From Panopea generosa (Eukaryota > Mollusca > Bivalvia > Adapedonta > Hiatellidae): a DNA stretch of 64,000 nt. A program made the translations under genes and the position numbers. The notes under the pieces were generated by a model. That model was not told where the DNA came from, made no database searches, and saw only the letters and a program-made list of their open reading frames with translations. The stretch spans positions 11,492,987 to 11,556,986 of the forward strand of contig CM055896.1 of assembly GCA_029582155.1 (NCBI GenBank), written 5' to 3'. Below are positions 46,039 to 61,834 of the stretch, in pieces (the stretch's first letter is position 1; each line of letters opens with the position of its first letter).

Positions 46039-49000
46039 TCAAGCTTTCAGTTGTACCAGAGTCTGAAAAAAAAAGAAAAAGGAAGACGTTATTGCATACA
46101 ATTCTATGAATGTAAAACAAACGCAAAGCAGATATAAAATATCTGGGGCCCTGTTTCACTAACCTTAGTAAATCTTAAAAATTTTGTATGAACAAATGTT
46201 TTATTTTCGCAGTATTTTTTCATATTTTAGAAAGAATACTTTTTATTAGGCTTACACAAGATCGTAAAATTGGTAAGTAGCACACTAAATGAATTTCATG
46301 ACTATTTTTCAAAACTTCAAATTCATACGAAGAAGTAAACTTGGGATATAAACCGGTATGATATTCTACACAAGAAAGTCTGTATGCTTTCTGTCTCGAG
46401 GTCATTACACATTCAGCCCTTAATTTAAATTTCAATTCCCTACTCATAAGGATAATTTATGACACAAATTTCACTGATTGGTTCATGAGAAAAAGATTTT
46501 TAAATATTCTCAACTTTTACATTTTGGGGTGATTTTAAATATTCTCAACTTTTACATTTTGGGGTGACCACTTAAGATAAAGGAACCCAGTTATTTAAAA
46601 ACAACAAATATGCATCTCTTTGGCCCAACAATGGTTCTGTAAAGATTAAGGCAAAATAATTGCCATCTTTGAAAAAAATCTCCGTTATGAGCATATTATC
46701 CCCTAACTGACCCTTAAACAGAGCATAATAGTTTATCAGGATAAAACAGTATAAATGCAATGTATCTTTAAAAATCAAATAATTATCGAAATGGATAAAA
46801 AGCATTTCATTATCATTAATAGATAAAATCTTAATAGTTTGGTATGTCAAATCTACCAGAACGTTACAAATGGATATTTAAATTGGAGTGGTAAACTTAA
46901 ATACTGTTTGTCCACAGTTGCGTCATCATTCAGACTCTCTCTAAAAATGAAGCAATGTTTACTATGTAACAGACAGATGAAATCAAAATGAAATCTCTAG
47001 GCTCATTTAATACGTCACAAAATATGTTTTCGACCAATATTAAAATTCTGAAAAATCCTGATAAGGGAATTCATCAGAAAATTGTGGGTTTAAGAGAAGA
47101 TTTTTAACTTTTTTTTACTATATTTAGTGATGGTGGTCATTTTGCATTTTAAATCTAGTCTCTTATACATGAGGACTGCGGCGTGGTCTAGTGGTTGAGC
47201 GTCCGCCTCACATATGGAAGGTCGTGGGTTCAACCCCCGGCCGGGTCATACCAAAGACTTTAAAAATGGTACCAGAAGCTTCCTCGCTTGACGCTCAGCA
47301 TTTAGAGGACAGTTCTAGGTCTGGTTGGCCCGGTGTTAGTATAATGTGACTGGGTGGGGTATCATACCATGTGTCTGTGGCATGATACTCCAGTGTGACA
47401 GTGCTTAGAATACTGTCTCTATTGTTGCAAGCGATGCTAAACACCATACAACAACAACAACAACTTGTACATGAGAAATATTCATTTGAATTTGTATAAC
47501 TGACTTGGTGATTTCAGACAAGTGCTGCTAACAGGCAACGATGGATGACAGACAATGCACTATCCCATAAGCCTTTTGGCCCCTAGAACTATAAATGGTA
47601 TTTTATATTGATTCTGTACAAAAAACTACATTGTATTATGTCTCTGTAATGTGAAACACGTGATCTTTATTTACAAAATATAAAATCACATCCTCATAAA
47701 ATATCACATATGGTTATTTACCATTTCTTATAAAATACTAAAACACTAACAAATTAAATGAGATAAAAGGGAAAATGCTGACCTATTCATTCATGGTTAT
47801 CTTACATGTAAGATGAGCTACAATAATTGACCTTGCGAGAGCTGTCAATCAACCAAGTGATCAATATTATTTCCGGAGTCGCCATTTTTCTTAGACAAGC
47901 GAATGGTCTTTAAGTAAACACTACATTGTATTACATAATTGTAATAACGTGAACACACAATGCCACATGGCTGAAGCGATATTCACTCTTGTGTCAGGTC
48001 AATTTAATGCTCCTATCAATAAATTAAAGATTAGCCTCTTTAAATATATGGAGTGAAAATTAATAAATACATGGAGTTATATGCGGATATTCACCTTATT
48101 AGCACCTTCTAAACTGGAGATGAGAGACTTTAGCTCTTCCCCATTTAGTTCCACTGAGACTGTTCGTCTGTCTGTGTCTGTGTGCACGTCCATATCTAGT
48201 GATAACACTGGTTCCTGGACAGAGGATATCTTGTCACTGGACATCACCAACTATGGAGGAATAACATGCAACAATTCAGTATGTGATACAAATTAATATA
48301 TATTTACACAGTATACATGTATGTCTATACATTATCTATAAAATATAATGTCCGTTGGGTTATCCAGAAGTTCTACACGTATTTTGTCTAATATAACTTC
48401 AAACAGTATGCAAAATATGAAGAAGATATATATCCAAACAAAATAGTTACATGTATTTCAAACATGTTCTGTACGCCTGTCTGCTGCAGGTCAGTTTTAC
48501 GTTACATTGTTGTGACGTCAACTAATTTCACAAGTAATTTCCCTACTCTTACTCGTTGCTCCACTCATACATTTGAGCAATCAAGAAACCCTGTGATCAC
48601 TCTAAAGACTTACATGTTATTCATTCTTAATTATCATGTGCACTGTACCGTAACCTATACAGCATAGTTCATGAATTGTATTACAGCAATCCTTATTGAG
48701 GCACCTTTTACCACGTTGATGTGACATTTTGTCACAAGGCGCTCATCCATTATTGTTTCTTGTTCCTCACTGTACCATTTGTGCCATTTATAGACTACAA
48801 TCACACTACAAATAACTTTCTCTGAGCTTTACTAAACATATATATCACCTGGATCAATGTTTTGCTATTAATATTGACACAAAACTTTATTTCCGCTGGT
48901 TGTATCACCTTTTCCTCGGACAGAAGTTTTGCTTATTAACGAGTTTGCCTTTTTTATGTAAGTTTGATAAAACTCCTAACACTTACGTGCCATACTACTA

Positions 49001-52000: not shown

Positions 52001-55000
52001 AAAAAAAAAAAAAAATATTATAATGACATGTGTCCCCTAATTGAACCCTCTGGATGGGGTCATCTTTAACCCTACGTACACCATTTGAACTTATCTAACA
52101 AAACTATAGTTGGTCATTATTACTACATATACATTTTGAAAATCTGTTGGGCTGTTCATGAGAAGAAGATTTTTATGTTTTGGACTGTTTTTCGTAATTA
52201 CGGCTATCTTGAATTTCAGATCGAAAAAAACCAAAAAACTCTGTAAAGTCTCCTATGCAATAGAAACATCCATGTGAAGTTTCAATTTAATTGGCCTAGT
52301 GTTTTCAGAAAAAGTGCTGCTAACAGAAAACAGACGACAGACAACATGCCATCGCATAAGCACTTTTGGCCTTTGGCCAGTAGAGCTAAAAAACACAAAA
52401 AAAATTTCAAATACAATGTATCAAGCTTCCCTTACCATACAAATCTATCCACAAAATACATTTCTATTCTTCAGAAATTCTTAAAACAGTGCAATGTATT
52501 TATGTTGCTTTTTACAGGTATAAACTGTTTATAATTTTCAATAACATGCCTGTACCTTGAGTTTCCAGTCGAAGTCCTCTAACACTGCCTGGGATATTCC
52601 ATGACTGTCGGCAAGGAGCTGTTTTCTAATGTCAGCTCTACGACTATTGACTATGTCAAGTATAACACATTTGTATTCTTCATTCAAGCTACCAAGTTCT
52701 TGAAATAACTGAAATGTTTGGAATAACCTATTAAACTGACAAGTAAAACCAATATTTATATCAATTCTGGTGTAACATGGCAATTTAAAATTTGTATGTG
52801 TAAAACAAGATTGGAGAATCGGGTTGAAAGCTGTAATGTTAAGTCTATGGCTATCAGTTTTGTCTTCCTAGACTCATATTAACCCACAAGATGTCTCGTT
52901 GTGTCACTGTTCGTTACTGTCAAGATCAGCTCAAGTCTTCTTGAGCTGCGGACCCTTTTTTAATTTTATATAATGATCAATTAGCTTTCTAGCTGGGTTC
53001 ACTGAAGTTTCACATTATGGCTAAGAAGATGGCCCTGACATTTAAGAACACAATGGCACATCTGTACAAGTTTATATAAATGTCAAAGAAGGCTCGGACT
53101 ATAATATCAAGATGTTAGACTCAGAACAATTACAGTTTATATTTCAATTTTTGCTTTGGTAATTTTCTCACCTACATACAGGTAATAGTCAACTATATAT
53201 TTGTTATTCATGGTATAATCTTTATCCAACAACCTTGAATATCATATATACCCATGTATTGTTGATATTTGTTAAAAATAATTAATTATTATAAGACTTT
53301 CCAAATTTCAAAAGTCACAATTTTTAAAAGCATGAAAAAAGTCAAGATTGTCAATTTTCATTGCATGGTGTTCGATACATTTGCAGTATGTTAGTTTTGG
53401 ATGTATGTTGCTAAATGCTTCAATCTACCTGATCCTTTGTCCATGAATTTTTAACAGCATTCTTCAAGAGATCTGTGAGCGAGTCTGATACTTCCCACCA
53501 CTCTTGCAATGACCAGATTTTGGAGTAGTCATCATAGGAGGGTCGGGATCTATGACAAATACCATCCACAAGTCTGTGTAAAACCTGGGGAATAAAACAA
53601 ATACCATCCACAAATATGTGTAAAACCTGGAGAATAAAACAAATACCATCCACAAGCCTATGTAAAACCTGGAGATTAAAACAAATACCATCCACAAATC
53701 TGTTTAAAACATGGAAAATAAAACAAATACCACCAAAAGTCTGTGTAAAACCTGGAGATTAAAACAAATACCATCCACAAATCTGTTTAAAACATGGAGA
53801 ATAAAACAAATACCACCACAAGTCTGTGTAAAACCTTGAGAATAAAAAATGAAGTTTTGAATGCCATCACAATTATAGTTATAAACAATAAATAATTATC
53901 TACAAGTTGACACTGTATTAAGAAAGTACTTTATGGAATTTGTAGACCATAATGTTAAATCATGGAATGATATAGAGAAGGAAAGGCAAGTGAATGAGAT
54001 TTTGTGAATGCTCGCATATTCACGCAAAATCTCGCAATATCTTGTTTTCAATTACTTTACTTCCATTCATCTCAGGAACACAATTCAAAATTCTTACATT
54101 GCAGAACAAAATTCTTAAAACCATTCCAAGAAATTTGTGTTTGAAACTGTTGAAGTACTTTTGATTGCAAAATTTTATATCACAGAAAAAATTACAAGAA
54201 GTTTTCCTTTACACCTCAATATATCTTTAATTCAATATCATTTTGTGTGATCAAAACTTGTTTAAAGTTAAACATCTAGATTACATACAACTAACAGTTA
54301 ATGTATAAGAAATCAGTTGCCTGTGAATTATGAATTTGCCAAATAATTTATCATTTGTGTGCTATTTTATCAACATTGAGTCAAAACATGCAAGTTTCCT
54401 ATCCTTCTATACAAGACAAGATGTCCTTGGTTAAACTGTACAAACTTTTAGAATGCAAAATGTTTACTTGTATTAGGATCATGCTGATTAATATACATTA
54501 CATCTCATTGTTATCAAATATATTCATGCGTCTCACACCAGTGATTCAAGTGGGAATGTTATCAATTACTTATGGAGATGGATGTGCTCAAGTACTTAAC
54601 CTTGAGAATAAAACAGTGAAGTTTTGAATGCCATCACAATTATAGTTATAAACAATAACTAATTATCTACTAGTTGACACTGTATTAAGAAAGTATACTG
54701 GTCATACCTAATACGGCGAGTCTATTTTTTTCCAACCATGTTAAGAATGGCGTCAATAATAAACAGTTATAAGGTTACTCAAGTATGCTGAGTAATAAAC
54801 AGTTGCCGATACGAAATGCAAACAAATGCCGATGCTAACAGAAGTTGGAGTTTTGCGTATGTCTTCCTAAATTGTTTTTATTCGGGCATTCGCCGTAATA
54901 GGTATATCGCGGTATTATGTATACTGTATATACTTTGTATTAGGATCATTATATTTAATTGACATTTTTTTATGATGGCAATTGTTTGTTTATGTTGTAA

Positions 55001-55285
55001 AAACATAATAACAATGCTCTGCTTTATTCATTTTTTTACGTATATTTAAAATAAGGGCAACGCCTGTGGATCTGTGGGAGTTTTTCGTATAATTTTAAAA
55101 ATGAAGGAGCATACACCGGTACAATTTCAAAATAAAAGTTATTTTTGCTGTGGCAGTTATTTTTTCACATAGTTATTTATATGTTATTTGGTGTCGATGC
55201 AGTTTTTCTATGATTGCCTTACATTTACACATAGTTTTGAGTCACATTTCGTAAGCAGTTCAATGTTTTCATTTTTGTCAGCCAT
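46039..55285 (-). CDS. COMMD8: COMM domain-containing protein 8, complete, 5 exons
   Basis: Minus-strand exons in order: 55285-55223, 53584-53429, 52708-52556, 48250-48095, 46062-46039. Lengths 63, 156, 153, 156 and 24 nt give 183 residues plus stop; all introns are phase 0 with GT/AG. The N-terminal helical domain includes VLHRLVDGICHRSRPSYDDY and an SLQEWWEV segment, matching the DGIC...Y..EEW pattern of COMMD8. The C-terminal COMM domain starts around residue 119 with LEDFDWKLK, then SSDKIS and LISSLEGANK, ending VQLKA. The length equals my recollection of human COMMD8. COMMD proteins form the decameric Commander complex with CCDC22/CCDC93, which recycles endosomal cargo and affects NF-kB turnover. 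Head to head with the ATPase gene at 56110. A CCAAT box (minus strand) lies about 40 bp upstream of the start. Confidence 0.93.
46440..47590 (-). repeat. Dispersed repeat F1, inverted copy with nested SINE D
   Basis: Reads GGATAATTTATGACACAAAT, GGTTCTGTAAAGATTAAGGC, and after an interruption AAGTGCTGCTAACAGGCAAC to CATAAGCCTTTTGGCC. The order matches the reverse of the longer copy at 50575-52395. A 36-bp segment (TTTTAAATATTCTCAACTTT...) is tandemly duplicated at 46492-46565. A SINE interrupts it at 47171-47460. Confidence 0.7.
47171..47462 (+). mobile_element. SINE family D, full-length copy
   Basis: The tRNA-like head has CGTGGTCTAGTGGTTGAGCG (A-box region) and GTCGTGGGTTCAACCCCCGG (B box). 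The body has CGGTGTTAGTATAATGTGAC, and the tail is CAACAACAACAAC. It lies inside repeat F1 in intron 4 of COMMD8; a 3' fragment of the family is at 18508-18625. Confidence 0.85.
48300..49405. other. Intron 3 of COMMD8, unassigned part
   Basis: AT-rich. No exon, RNA gene or repeat was recognised between exon 4 and the repeat at 49410. Confidence 0.4.
49410..49630 (-). repeat. Dispersed repeat, inverse of 23640-24060
   Basis: AGATCCTATTCTTGCCATCA, CTCCCTGGAACCACAGAGGG and GATGCCAGAACCACACGGGC match the two blocks of the copy nested in the long-TIR element. Confidence 0.75.
49890..50110 (-). mobile_element. SINE family C copy
   Basis: Reverse copy with CACATTTCAGGTTATATAGG, TTTAACTGGCAAACTTTCTC, TTTTTTGGAGCGAGC and CCTACAACCTCAGTGGTGAG. 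It ends at the head CCTTAAATGACTTGGCC. Confidence 0.75.
50150..50370 (-). repeat. Dispersed repeat G (CTCACCGGGACAAATG family), inverted
   Basis: ACTCATCACCCATGCAAAGA, GATTGGAGGCAAACACCAAA and AACCTGGGTGGGTGTCTACA are the reverse of 63045-63215. The opening CTCACCGGG part is lost here. Confidence 0.75.
50575..52395 (-). repeat. Dispersed repeat F1, long inverted copy with internal tandem repeats
   Basis: Begins CCCAAAAGGGCCTGAGGATA and ends CTTTTGGCCTTTGGCCAGTA, the full reverse of the family at 38046. Between about 50840 and 51420 a unit of roughly 110-120 bp (CATAGCAAGTTTCATAAMAYT ... TGAAAGGGCCT) repeats about five times. A run of 27 A's lies at about 51990-52016. It occupies most of COMMD8 intron 3 upstream of exon 3. 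Confidence 0.8.
53562..53850 (-). repeat. 42-bp tandem repeats duplicating the COMMD8 exon 2 splice acceptor
   Basis: About seven 42-bp units (plus strand: AAATACCATCCACAAGTCTG, then TGTAAAACCTGGGGAATAAAAC). The first unit spans the real exon start: on the minus strand the junction is TTTTATTCCCCAG|GTTTTACACAGACTTG, and the exonic half encodes VLHRLVDGIC. At least three further units keep a CAG acceptor (boundaries at 53626, 53668 and 53752); in two units AG is lost. The first three extra units are open in the COMMD8 frame, so each would add 14 residues. Confidence 0.9.
53950..54190. repeat. Dispersed repeat E, second copy
   Basis: Matches 32945-33178 in the same orientation (TATTCACGCAAAATCTCGCA, TTCCATTCATCTCAGGAACA). 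Confidence 0.8.
54480..54605 (+). mobile_element. SINE family A fragment
   Basis: TACATTACATCTCATTGTTA and GTGATTCAAGTGGGAATGTT to GGATGTGCTCAAGTACTTAA; truncated at both ends. Confidence 0.6.
54703..54915. mobile_element. MITE with ATACCTAATACGGCGA ends
   Basis: The left end CATACCTAATACGGCGAG and the right end CGCCGTAATAGGTATATCGC are imperfect inverse repeats, about 210 bp. It lies in intron 1 of COMMD8. Confidence 0.6.
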
Positions 55286-56109
55286 TTTGATCAGGTGCCT
55301 CTTGTGAACTAAGAAATTATTTGATTGGGTTAAGTTTCGTTATTGTAGCCAATGAAATTTTGTTTAATAATTCGTATATGGAAAATTGGACTGGACGATG
55401 GGCCTGTTAAAAAGACAAAAATACAGTCTATAACATCTCGGGTGTGTTCCAGTTTGTTACGATCTATTTTATTGGATGTAAATGTATTTTTAACCAATGA
55501 AACGTGGGTTTACATAATCAGATCGTCACCAACGTCATTTTGTTTTTGTATGTTTACACGAACGAACATAGCAAAAAGCGAATATTTCGTAATCAATAAC
55601 GAAATGGTATATTGTTTAACACGTTTATTTTAATTATTTGGATAACAACTACAACAAAATGGTGGACTAAAAGTATAACCATGTCTTAGTTTCCACAGTA
55701 TACGGATAGGAGTAAAAGTAGGACAAGGAATTCGTGGGAAGTACAGGATAATAATTCGCAGCAAGAACTTTAGATAGCATGTGATGAGAGTTGTGTAAAT
55801 AGTGAATATTTGCCTGTCACCTGGTCGGATCATTCAGGGTGTCAAAAGTGTGCGTAACCAAATTTTAAAAAGTCTTACCAATGAAGAAATACAGAAAAGA
55901 CAGTGATACATAATATTCATAAAACCATTTTAACCAGATTTAACTAATTTGCAAACATTAACATGTTATTGTCATATTTTATAATTGAAACTAAATATTC
56001 ATGAGAACTGCATTGTAACATACATGTTATCAATATAGTATACATACTGTATATTGTGAAACCATATAATTTACTTGATTTTATCTGTGATATATATTAA
56101 ACACCAAAA
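55286..56109. promoter_or_regulatory. Divergent promoter region between COMMD8 and the P4-ATPase
   Basis: The two start codons point away from each other, 825 bp apart. An inverted CCAAT box (ATTGG near 55324) and a forward CCAAT near 55349 lie within 70 bp of the COMMD8 start. No TATA box or GC island is evident. A 93-codon plus-strand ORF at 55352-55633 has no recognised similarity. Confidence 0.45.
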
Positions 56110-59100
56110 ATGGGAAACACACTTCTTTGTAATCGTAGCAACAGATCAGGGCCGAAATACCGTATTGTGGTACCAAACCATAGTTGTGAGGTACAGGCCA
56201 AGACCAAAAACCATCCAAATCGAAACTCTGCATCAAATAGAATCAAAACAACAAAATATTCCATTTTGACATTTTTACCAAAAAACCTATTTGAACAATT
56301 TCATCGTTTTGCTAATTTATACTTTTTACTTGTTGTGGCATTAAATTGGGTCCCACAAGTACAAGCATTTGGAAAGGAGATTGCTATGGTACCTATTGTA
56401 TTTGTACTAACTGTCACTGCCGTCAAGGATGCATTTGAAGATTTCAGAAGATACAAGTCTGACAAGAAAGTAAATGGATCCAAATGCCGTATATATTCAG
56501 GCGAGGAGTAAGTATTATTTTCACCCAATCCTTGAAAAATAAATATATTGTTTTTACGATTGAAAATGTGGAGATTTTTGTTATTCTCTCGTAAGTCTGG
56601 ACAATTCAATGACCTTGCGTGATCACTGATAAATTGAAATGTATTGTTTGAGCGATTAAAAATGTGGAGGTTTTGTCATTTCCAGCAAAAGTCTGGACAA
56701 TTCATTTACCTCGCGTGACCTTATTTAAGATTGGATGCACTATTTAAATCTAACCACTGATGTCATGCATAGTTTAACTATGCAAAATGCAATGCTACAC
56801 AAATATAAACATCCGGTTCTTGAAAAATAAATTGCAATGTGTTGCTTTTGCGATTTAAATTGGGATATTTGTGTTATTCCCGCGTAAGTCTATTCAATCA
56901 ACGACCTCCAGGGCCTCCGCTGGGATTCGCCAATGTCGCCAAATGCGAAGGAAATTTTTTATTTGCGAAAGATTTTCCTCTTTTGCGAAAGTGGTTGCGA
57001 CAAGGAAATCAACAGCCGATTCTCGTATTCAAATTTTATAAAAAAAAAACTGACTGTAGAAATTATCTTGGCTAATCCATTTAACTGTCCCCTCATCCCA
57101 ATCAACAACCATGACAATTAACAGATTAATCAGCACCCAGCTGTGATATCTCCCTCAGGCCTTTGCACTGTCACAGATTATAAATTTCAACACATGTGTA
57201 AGATTACCCTTAGCTAAAAATAGCATATGCTAAATATAGTCACGTGGTCGCGTAGTGACAACCAGCATATTCGTATTTTTAATTATTATATATTATTTAC
57301 ATTTTTAAATCATATAGAAATTTGATATGTCTTAAAATATGCTAAACAGGTTTAGAAAAAATGTTTATGCCAATACACTGTCAACTATACTTTCTTGGGT
57401 AACCCCAATTTTTTGTCAACAAACAGTTAGTTTCAAAATGGCGGCTTCAGAGATAAAAACATTAAATGACTGTAGATTTTGTTTGTAAAATAATTTTGTT
57501 TATAATGTCAGCGATGACTGTTGGTTGTTTGATATCAATACCAAGGTTTTACATTAAGTAGATCTGTTTGATCTATATGCTCTGTTGTTATAATGCTAAT
57601 ATTTACCATATTTATAGCGAGTCTGTAGTGACAAAGTGGGTGGGGTAATAAAGTTATTTAGAAACTGTTGTGGAATGTTTTAACCAACGGCAATTTCAGT
57701 CAGTACGCTAGCTGGAAATCCATAATTTGTGTATTATAATTTTAAAATAAATTGATATATATAGATTTTAAATGATTATAAAATACACTGTATGGGGTTT
57801 TGTGAGAATAACATGCTGTAGAAAAAATAAAAGCAAAAAAAAAATAAGGCTCAAACAGCTGTTATTTATGTGCACAAACACACAAACATTGACAAAATCA
57901 AACAAGTAAGCTACCGTAAGTTACTGTAACTTATGAGTGGTTTGATAACGATTTAAAGAATGTTGATCGAGGTACGCAGTTTAGTTGGCTACAAAAATGG
58001 CTCTTAATTTGGCTCCATTTTTTTTAATTTGGCTCCAACTTTTCTAATATGGCGAAAGTAGTGGCGATAAGAAAAAAATAGCCAGAGGAGGCCCTGACCT
58101 CGTGTGGTAACTGATATGACACTATATACAAATAGACGCTATTTTTATTAAAGCTTTAAATAGTAACGATATGATGTCTTGCACAAATTAACTTTGTGAA
58201 ATGTTATGCTTCACGAATATAAACTAACTATCTCTGAAAAATAAATAGGCAAACCAGTCATGTTTTCACGAGTGCCCTTTTTACCGGAAAGGAATTTTTT
58301 AGCAAAAAGGGAAAATGACCGGTAAAGGGAATTTACCGGCCATGGCGTCTGCGATGGAAGGAAAAAACCCTTGGATAATATTAAAATGCATTTCAAATAC
58401 ATATAATTCAGTTCACACACTTGCATCAGATGGCAATTTAAAGTCACATTTGGTCAAGTAGGAATTTGTATATTTGTCTGACATAGCGAATATGTTTGTT
58501 TTGCTGTATAATTATCCCAATATATGAAGAAAAAAAAAGTAAAACAATCTAGCAGAATCAATTTATTCATGATGATGTGAAAGGGCAGACTGTTGCTCTT
58601 GTTATGTGTGTGACAATGATAAAAACAAAAACTAAACCATTTGAAGACAAATAAAATGAAATCATTAAACAATTTAAAACATTGATGAATAAAAATATTT
58701 CTCTGTAAACATACAGATTTCTGAGTTGTGTTGTGATTTTTCCTGTTTCCATGGATCTATACAATGCTTTTTCCGCTAATGAAGGGTTATTCATCATTCC
58801 TGGAATTGCTCCTCATCTTCCAAAAAAAACAAAACTGATTGAATGTAATCTTTGATGCTACAACATTTGTTAAATAATTGTTTTTAACTCGACTTTTGTA
58901 GAAATTGGAGCTATTGTACTCGCATTGATTAGCGTTTTTTTTTCTTTTCTTTTCATGTCTATATTTACTTCCAAAAATGGGACACAAGGGCCAAGTAAAA
59001 TGAATCATTTTTGATTTTCGGCAGAATTATTGCCTTTTCTACACAAATAAAATTGGCTGTGGGTTTTATTGCTGGATATCAGTATTAAGCTATATGTCTC

Positions 59101-61759
59101 ACTACACAGTTACACCCCTTTTTTGCCACGGTGGCAAGATTCTTACTCTTAAAAAATAGGCCTATGTACTTTGGTCATGAAATATTTTCAAAATGGTTCA
59201 TAGTGGCTGAGATTTCTTGCTGCAGATGAGTAGACCAAAAGTTGGCATAGCATATACTGCAATAAGACATCACTGATATTAAAAATGTGACTTTTATAGG
59301 ATTTCAACATATGCATGTATTTATGAGCATTTGAGGACTTTTTTTTTCAAAAAAGCTCAGGGTGTCACTGCACCCTCTTTAAAAAAAACCAGCATGGTCA
59401 ACCTACCAGTTATTGTGCATTTTTATGTGTGTATACATTCCTGCTATGAAAAAAAAATATTTTAAACAAAATTCTATGCGGAATTCATTTTTTACCAGTG
59501 AAATCCTAGACCTTATTTTATATAGAACAAAGAACAAAATTCAACTGTGTAGTAAGACCTTATACTCATACTTAATTATCTTTAAAAGTGCCTCAAGTGG
59601 AATAACAAATATCTCGATAACTGTACGGTACTACTTACCTTAGATGAAGACAATGTCATGCAAAGAACAGAACGGTTCTGTAATAGACCATTATTATAAA
59701 TTTGAAATGCTAAATTGAAATGAAATTGGAATAGCTGTTCATCTATCTATTTACATTGTTTCCCCCCAACCCCATATTTTCGGAACTCTCCCCAAATTCC
59801 CCAACAAACTGATCAAAATGCAGCCACTAAGGTTGTAGGTTCTATTCAGGTTCATTCTTCCTTCACCAATAAAACTGGATATATGCCATATATATATATA
59901 ATCTAAAAACCAAAAAAAAATTTCAACAACCAGATACTCATTTTTCGGTACAATGTCTTTTCCTAAAGTTAATACAGCTTTTTTGCAGCTGACAACTGTG
60001 GCTGGAGGGGGCAATAAATTAAAATAAAACGGTGGCTTCGATCACATGAGCCGGTGCTAATTTCGCATCCTAGTGACAGAAAAAAATGTTCAAAAGAAGT
60101 AAATCTATATAAAACATTGTCTTATTAATAATTTATCAATCATCAATTAAAATATGAATCTCTCAATAACGTCTTTGAAAGGGAAATCATAATAGCATAA
60201 TTAAAAACAAAAACTGTGTTCATTTTTAAAAAAAATATATATAAAATTTCAAAATTCATTGCACTGATGAATGCTCTTGAACTTTGTGTACAGTTTAAAC
60301 ATATTTTAGTAGAATGTTAATTGTCTTTTCGTGGGACATATTTGTTTACAAGAATGGGGTGCAAGAGTACTTTAAATCCTGTGATTTATTTCGCATTATA
60401 AAGATGAGAATCCTTAAAAATTCAAAAGAGTGTTAAAATCCATTGTGATTTATAGCACACATAATAATAGCGGCATAGCTTATAATTTATTGTTTTTCCC
60501 TACCAGCTGCATGGTCATCAGATAAATTCATGATGATGATGTCATAATGTTACTGGTGGTCCTGGACGGGCAAGGTGTGGCATTTAAATTCACTTATAAT
60601 TCATATCCTGGTGTATTAATTGTTAAAAGCCAGGTGAAATATTTATTATAATGTATAGATAAATTAATGTATATGGCAGAGACCTTTGCCAGGGCTTTTA
60701 TTAAATAGCCGGGTGTTCAAGTAAGAATAGTCGGGGGGAAACCCTGGCTTCTAATTACAGTCCTTTGCTTTTCGCTGTTAAACCATTATTTTACTCAAGT
60801 TAAAATTAAAATAAATTGAAAACTTCTTATTATCTCAGACAGAAATTTATTTTATTATACAGCCAACAATGTGATGATATAATATTGGAACATGGTTTAT
60901 ACCATCAAGTGGATGGGGACGGAAGTTGACCATTGCGTCAGGCGGCTAACCAGTTCTCACAAATGTTGCCCAGATTTAAATTCCCATATCAGCATTTTAA
61001 GTGATAGGTGTTGAACTGCATCTCACACCAATAACCAAGTGGCTATTACCTCAGTCCTGGGTGCTGTCTTTGATTCTCTACTCCTGGTCCCTCTCAGATC
61101 ATGCTCACAATAGTTTCTTCATACACACTAATGAGAGTCAGTGTTTTTTGACATTCTTAAACAGAGGCCTATATTTGACTACTTCCCAATTAAAAAATCA
61201 TGTGTTTTTTTTCAACGGAGGCAAAAAATATTCTGAAAATGGAATTTATTTTTTTTATTTTTCTTACATATTGGGATAAAAAAACTGGATATGAAATATT
61301 ATTGTAATATCTGGTAATTAATGAAAAGAACATGTGTAACAGTGTTACATTTTATTTTCCAGTTTGCTATATAAAGCTTTAAAAAAGTCGCACTTTCTCC
61401 TCAATCGCGCTGTTTCACCAAATCTCGAGATTCAGGTCGTAGGCCTCTCCAAATTTTCAGGGAAAATCTCTAAGAGTGATTTGTGTATGCTACGTAGATT
61501 GTATTGTATTTTTTTATCTTTCACACTTGTATACATTGTACTATATATATATTTCAGTGGACAAGGATTCCATCAGAAGGAGTGGTGTGAAATTCATGTT
61601 GGAGACATTATACATTTGTCATGCAATGACATCATTCCTGCTGACCTGTTATTGCTCAAGTCCTCCGATGCACTCGGAATATGTCACGTGGAGACCATGA
61701 ACCTTGATGGAGAGACAAACTTGAAACAACGACAATCTGTAGTTGGCATTGATTATGGG
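56110..61759 (+). CDS. Class V P4-ATPase (ATP10-like phospholipid flippase), first two coding exons, 3' incomplete
   Basis: Exons 56110-56507 (398 nt) and 61558-61759 (202 nt). Phase 2 closes as GGA|GTAAGT...CAG|TGG, and exon 2 ends in phase 0 at GTATGA. The first 199 codons show the family start: [16 protein letters not shown], membrane segment 1 (about 70-88), membrane segment 2 (about 91-108), then [10 protein letters not shown]. Exon 2 encodes the start of the actuator domain, with [20 protein letters not shown] and [13 protein letters not shown] performs dephosphorylation of the phosphoenzyme. These enzymes move phospholipids to the cytosolic leaflet, usually with a CDC50/TMEM30 partner. 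FEQFHR, VQAFGKE and the wording around [10 protein letters not shown] favour ATP10 over ATP8 or ATP9; the paralogue is not settled. The P-, N- and remaining membrane domains lie beyond the window. Confidence 0.88.
56512..61557 (+). other. Intron 1 of the P4-ATPase
   Basis: About 5 kb, mostly AT-rich and unassigned. A SINE C fragment (CTAAGGTTGTAGGTTCTATT ... CCAATAAAACTGGATATATG) lies at about 59824-59900. Related blocks of about 110 bp (TTGAAAAATAAAT ... AAGTCTGGACAATTCA) occur near 56530-56620 and 56630-56710, with a diverged third near 56820-56900. No further exon was recognised. Confidence 0.5.
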
Positions 61760-61834
61760 GTATGAAAGTCTTATGTAAACCTTTCCTAAACTATTTAAGT
61801 GCCTGCTATGTTTGGATCAAGTCATTCACTTTCT

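Follow-up and report, generated by a model that had tools for sequence, protein, structure and literature searches.

The 64-kb window, the whole stretch of DNA analyzed here, lies on contig 3 of the Panopea generosa assembly (positions 11,492,987-11,556,986) and carries on its minus strand a four-exon COMMD8 gene, with a 42-base minisatellite placed across the junction of intron 1 and exon 2 (Table 1). When joined with splicing at 53584, the exons encode a protein of 181 residues that matches human COMMD8 (8f2u_H) without gaps over residues 11-180 (E value, 6.2e-38). This protein contains both an N-terminal helical domain (Pfam COMMD8_HN, 1.4e-29, with profile positions 1-90 of 90 covered) and a COMM domain (COMM_domain, 2.7e-15), and its nearest solved relative is COMMD8. 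We take COMMD8 to be part of the Commander complex and its DGIC segment to be a helix in the N-terminal domain. Exon 1 is a probable assignment, picked by eye among the listed candidates running from an ATG to a phase-0 GT; its residues 11-21 are weakly alike those of human COMMD8, although they fall inside the gap-free match. A second gene copy or a retrocopy, which would serve as a fossil of real splice junctions, was sought with the COMMD8 protein as the query in the entire assembly (1,474,161,289 bases in 39 contigs) at E values of up to 10. Five candidates were scored, and no such copy was found, all four matches being the gene's own exons.

Table 1. Features of the COMMD8 locus and its surroundings (window coordinates)
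Feature	Position	Strand	Remarks
COMMD8 exon 1, probable	55223..55285	-	MADKNENIELLTKCDSKLCVN; phase-0 donor gtaagg
COMMD8 exon 2	53429..53584	-	Innermost repeat unit formed by first 30 bases (53584-53555)
COMMD8 exon 3	52556..52708	-	Human COMMD8 match, exon joining
COMMD8 exon 4, with stop	48077..48250	-	Human COMMD8 match, exon joining
42-base minisatellite, about 7 copies, across intron 1/exon 2 junction	53555..53847	-	TRF
Two 83-base dimer copies (53834-53752, 53751-53669)	53669..53834	-	2 mismatches of 83; TRF period-83 row
Extra acceptor CCAG/GTT, first exonic base 53626	53626..53628	-	In frame, +14 residues (VLHIFVDGICFIPQ)
Extra acceptor CCAG/GTT, first exonic base 53668	53668..53670	-	In frame, +28 residues
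Internal ACAG, first exonic base 53740	53740..53742	-	Open to end, +52 residues; weak score, 4.7
Extra acceptor CCAG/GTT, first exonic base 53751	53751..53753	-	Frame-breaking, stop after 15 residues
Outermost acceptor CAAG/GTT, first exonic base 53834	53834..53836	-	Frame-breaking, stop after 15 residues
Upstream flank of the array (3' end of intron 1), with terminal CTCAAG	53835..53928	-	Second copy at 54601-54695
P4-ATPase-like gene	56101-56508, 61340-61762	+	PhoLip_ATPase_N, 7.7e-25; second stretch only below Pfam cut-off

TRF describes the array as 7.0 copies of period 42 with 86% matches (score, 460) and adds a second row of period 83 (score, 495). In 200 dinucleotide shuffles of positions 52901-54500, the best TRF score was 59, three rows scored at least 50, and no row had a period of at least 20 with at least three copies. 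The array thus consists of tandem units within the range of about 10-100 bases, well above chance, in which each typical unit joins the first 30 bases of exon 2 to 12 bases of acceptor and so holds both an intron end and an exon start. The original prediction, which placed a minisatellite with a 42-bp unit at 53562..53850 and read it as a boundary duplication in a COMMD8 gene on this strand, was right in each of these respects, with limits adjusted to those in Table 1. Units resembling the start of exon 2 begin at 53834, 53793, 53751, 53710, 53668, 53626, and 53584, the last being the exon start itself, which encodes VLHRLVDGIC; from outer to inner, they are spaced 41, 42, 41, 42, 42, and 42 bases apart. 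The first 30 bases of the 53668 unit differ from the exon by two synonymous changes (CAC to CAT and AGA to AGG) and no others, and the 53626 unit has two amino acid changes (R to I and L to F). The outer units are decayed, two having lost the AG and two having lost one base in the exon part, the latter being the two units of 41 bases. The period, previously described as codon compatible, is therefore so for the 42-base inner units and not for these two.

The outer four units form two dimers of 83 bases, a length that breaks the reading frame. Growth by dimers whose length is not a multiple of three was probably the youngest step of the expansion, and the near identity of the two dimers hints at a recent change in copy number. 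The sequence comes from one assembly, in which near-identical dimers are the part most open to mis-sizing, and the copy number might accordingly be an artefact of assembly or a peculiarity of one haplotype. However, the units are set apart by substitutions and by losses of single bases, a pattern that simple stutter of one unit would not be expected to produce, and such an origin of the copy number is very improbable. The array was also considered as a dispersed repeat and rejected as such; the only match in a search of the 1.47-Gb genome was the array itself, a result that does not prove rarity because very common words were skipped. A structured RNA was rejected as well; no Rfam family reached its gathering score in 53400-55400, and RNA of the array folds no better than shuffled sequences (z, 1.11; equal or greater stability in 175 of 200 shuffles).

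Five units keep AG at the acceptor position (53584, 53626, 53668, 53751, and 53834), and those at 53793 and 53710 carry CAT where the others have CAG. To define the reading frames, all 13 AGs located from 53540 to 53900 were individually joined to exon 1 and translated. Four remained open to the end, i.e., 53584, the two inner extra acceptors at 53626 and 53668, and the internal ACAG at 53740; the other nine, including 53751 and 53834, stopped early. The earlier claims that at least three extra units keep a usable AG and that the units nearest the exon are open in frame thus hold for four extra units and for the inner two, respectively, with the reservation that two of the four break the frame. 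One of these had been placed among the candidate acceptors at 53752; its true position is 53751, out of frame. Additions of 14 and 28 residues, foreseen together with longer ones before the DGIC motif, would indeed be read in frame, although the potential for isoforms is narrower than proposed and the inserts bring their own copies of DGIC, so that the motif would be repeated.

Acceptor strength was estimated for 74 AGs of intron 1 and exon 2 using a generic matrix not trained on P. generosa. The site at 53584 ranked first (11.2), followed by 53626 (10.9), 53751 and 53668 (8.6 each), and 53834 (8.5). With the same matrix, COMMD8's own acceptors of exons 3 and 4 scored 1.2 and 6.3, which indicates that these scores are poor predictors of use. 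The distance to the previous AG is 42 bases at 53584, 31 at each of 53626, 53668, and 53751, and 65, the longest, at 53834. Branch-point-like motifs were searched for 15-50 bases before the acceptors with a generic yUnAy pattern, likewise not trained on this species. The 53584 site has a TTTAC at -37, and no AG separates the two. Another lies at -37 of 53626 with an AG 4 bases after it, and a further yUnAy motif occurs there at -50; according to the published scanning model, an AG that close to a branch point can be passed over (PMC1431707). The 53834 site has two motifs, at -48 and -16, and none was found in this range before 53668 or 53751. Taken together, the score, the AG-free run among the in-frame sites, and the branch-point-like motif suggest that 53584 is probably the main acceptor, and the same three features make 53626 the likeliest minor one. 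Two points run counter to this ranking: the score of 53626 comes close to that of 53584, with a TTTAC at the same distance of -37, and a spliceosome scanning from upstream of the array would meet 53834 first. The unit at 53626-53585 has lost the internal ACAG and reads ACACATA there; as a result, 42 AG-free bases precede 53584, compared with 31 at three other acceptors. This loss possibly reflects selection favoring clean splicing at 53584, or it is due to chance. Pfam scores were tried as a judge of the isoforms and dropped, since they rise slightly with insert length (102.8, 104.9, and 107.2 bits for the +0, +14, and +28 forms) and do not discriminate. The COMMD8_HN profile is covered from position 1 by the +0 form alone and at 10-90 by the +14 and +28 forms.

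The array might be a functional ladder of acceptors, with 53584, 53626, and 53668 all substantially used, 0, 14, or 28 residues added to the N-terminal helical domain, and array length varying among individuals and tuning the mix. The open frames of both inner extra units, the small difference between the scores of 53626 and 53584, the purely synonymous changes at 53668, and the recent copy-number change implied by the dimers (2 mismatches of 83) are all consistent with such a ladder. Against these stand the two amino acid changes in the 53626 unit, the lack of a yUnAy motif in range of 53668, the solved human COMMD8 chain, which is without such an insert, and the outer units, which break the frame and show that growth of the array has not been held to a codon-compatible length. 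A functional ladder is considered unlikely. Alternatively, the array may lower COMMD8 output, if the outer acceptors at 53834 and 53751 compete for splicing and lead to premature stops and nonsense-mediated decay, in which case array length would set the amount of mRNA. These acceptors do retain an AG and a pyrimidine tract while stopping after 15 residues, and 53834 combines the longest AG-free run with its two branch-point-like motifs. Nevertheless, strong loss would be selected against in a gene whose protein is conserved and of which no second copy was found, and a role of this kind is distinctly unlikely.

The exon is the source of the array, because VLHRLVDGIC is conserved coding sequence that aligns with human LLHKIIDGIC; for the same reason, the opposite direction, with an intron minisatellite as the source and the exon derived from it, was rejected. 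The origin of the unit may be read from the intron just upstream of the array. The stretch of about 94 bases at 53835-53928 is 96% identical to 54601-54695; both copies lie in intron 1 and share the ending CTCAAGGTT. A genome search with this flank, in which very common words were skipped, returned two matches, the two intron 1 copies themselves, and no others; its candidacy as a dispersed element was rejected on this result, which does not prove rarity. The copy at 54601-54695 reads CACTGTTTTATTCTCAAGGTT, in which the TGT at -15 is 42 bases away from the one that encodes the Cys of DGIC, at +28. A slip between the two TGTs would therefore yield the unit, as judged from this one copy.

The explanation that best accommodates these features, to which we assign a probability of about 0.72, is that a boundary duplication expanded into the intron and is tolerated as a by-product, with 53584 mainly used. 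In this view, a segment made up of the final 12 bases of intron 1 and the initial 30 bases of exon 2 would have undergone tandem duplication, probably between breakpoints sharing TGT at intron position -15 and in the DGIC Cys codon, and the copies would then have spread into the intron. Each copy would have carried a pyrimidine tract and an acceptor, and some also the TTTAC branch-point-like motif, so that the end of intron 1 would now be a row of intact and decayed acceptor modules. The innermost acceptor at 53584 is probably still the one mainly used, which would keep the ancestral protein. Use of 53626, and perhaps of 53668, may give rise to low-level isoforms with 14 or 28 added residues, and use of 53751 and 53834 would lead to frameshifted, probably short-lived mRNA. 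Since the outer acceptors break the frame, there is no suggestion that the array is kept for making isoforms. To judge from the sequence, the array most likely arose as a by-product of the genome's richness in repeats, is tolerated, and is mostly spliced past.

Splicing choices reportedly arise from tandem arrays, as stated in the title of a 2007 PNAS paper. In human segmental-duplication genes, internal tandem repeats at exon-intron boundaries alter splicing or lengthen the protein, with 27 intron modifications reported and units of on average 30 bases repeated 4 times (De Grassi and Ciccarelli 2009, PMC2812944). The COMMD8 array is likewise a minisatellite across an exon-intron boundary. The human repeats, however, differ between paralogs of recent origin, are supported by transcripts in nearly all cases, and are presented as giving rise to novel introns (PMC2812944), whereas no paralog of COMMD8 was found, its intron existed before the array, the acceptor itself is repeated, and the case is known from genome sequence. 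Another similarity is with NAGNAG tandem 3' splice sites, which are alternative acceptors spaced by a multiple of three that add residues at the exon start (PMC3250501). Unlike in those sites, the spacing in COMMD8 is 42 bases rather than 3, and whole pyrimidine tracts have been copied.

Tandem genomic duplication of AGGT is a described route of intron gain, according to a review (PMC3443670) and a report on Drosophila cases (PMC2891723). The COMMD8 duplication is similar in that it carries splice signals, with AG/GT in the AG-bearing copies; these read AGGTTTTA and contain the AGGT proto-splice site given in those sources for introns arising by tandem duplication. Each such unit could in principle act as donor and acceptor at once, leading to intron gain or recursive splicing. 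By eye, however, GTTTTA is a poor donor compared with COMMD8's own GTAAGG, GTAGAT, and GTACAG. Moreover, the array joins an existing intron with a probable donor at exon 1; intron 1 extends from 55223, where that donor probably lies, to the array, and no new intron bounded by duplicated AGGT is seen. In the described route, duplication turns an exonic segment into an intron, whereas the segment duplicated in COMMD8 already held an intron end, and acceptors were multiplied. Intron gain or recursive splicing is hardly credible here.

A literature search with partial coverage, mostly at the level of listings, yielded no case recognized as exactly of the COMMD8 type. The array is a fresh example of a known phenomenon and differs in that the multiplied acceptor belongs to an already existing intron, within a conserved gene for which no second copy was found. 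It offers a clean natural test of how the spliceosome chooses within a row of several near-identical acceptors that includes two extending the frame and two others breaking it. In addition, it shows that a minisatellite-crowded genome can tolerate one such array where it sits at a conserved gene's splice junction. Should the inner acceptors be used, array length would be a heritable dial on protein structure. A polymorphic in-frame ladder of that kind, in which individuals would differ in unit number and the choice of inner unit would add multiples of 14 residues, repeating the DGIC helix, is decidedly doubtful.

The original prediction regarded such a boundary duplication as unusual, which is doubtful in this genome. 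In a sample of twenty 10-kb stretches taken at regular positions on three contigs (194.5 kb readable), 34 arrays with a period of at least 20 and at least three copies covered 17.5% of the readable bases. No such array was present in eight of the 20 stretches, and a single 8.9-kb array accounted for a quarter of the covered bases. By the same criteria, the 64-kb window contains 6 arrays covering 7.9%, or 94 per Mb. If the sample is typical, its density of about 175 per Mb corresponds to some 260,000 arrays in 1.47 Gb. Assuming about 400,000 splice sites, one would be straddled in roughly 1% of random 42-base duplications, and straddling arrays on the order of a thousand or more could have arisen, many of which selection would remove. 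With minisatellites covering 17.5% of the sample, an array straddling a junction somewhere is expected rather than surprising. The chance that a period is divisible by three is one in three, and here the property is true for only some of the units. A longer array in the window, at 132-2394, also has a period of 42, with a different unit, inner rows of period 21, and about 54 copies according to TRF.

Between the two copies of the array flank lies a copy of an abundant dispersed repeat with its core at about 53956-54415, for which at least 39 other long matches of 79-82% identity were found among the 40 scored of 8008 first-look candidates. At 54601, the junction has AAGGTT in common with a further repeat family (54524-54603), as if the two had been joined by short homology. 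Farther out, the P4-ATPase-like gene and COMMD8 are arranged head to head, with the first open frame of the former about 0.8 kb from exon 1 (55285). Human COMMD8 and ATP10D are neighbors as well, and the pairing of COMMD8 with a P4-ATPase-like gene may reflect old synteny and a shared promoter region.
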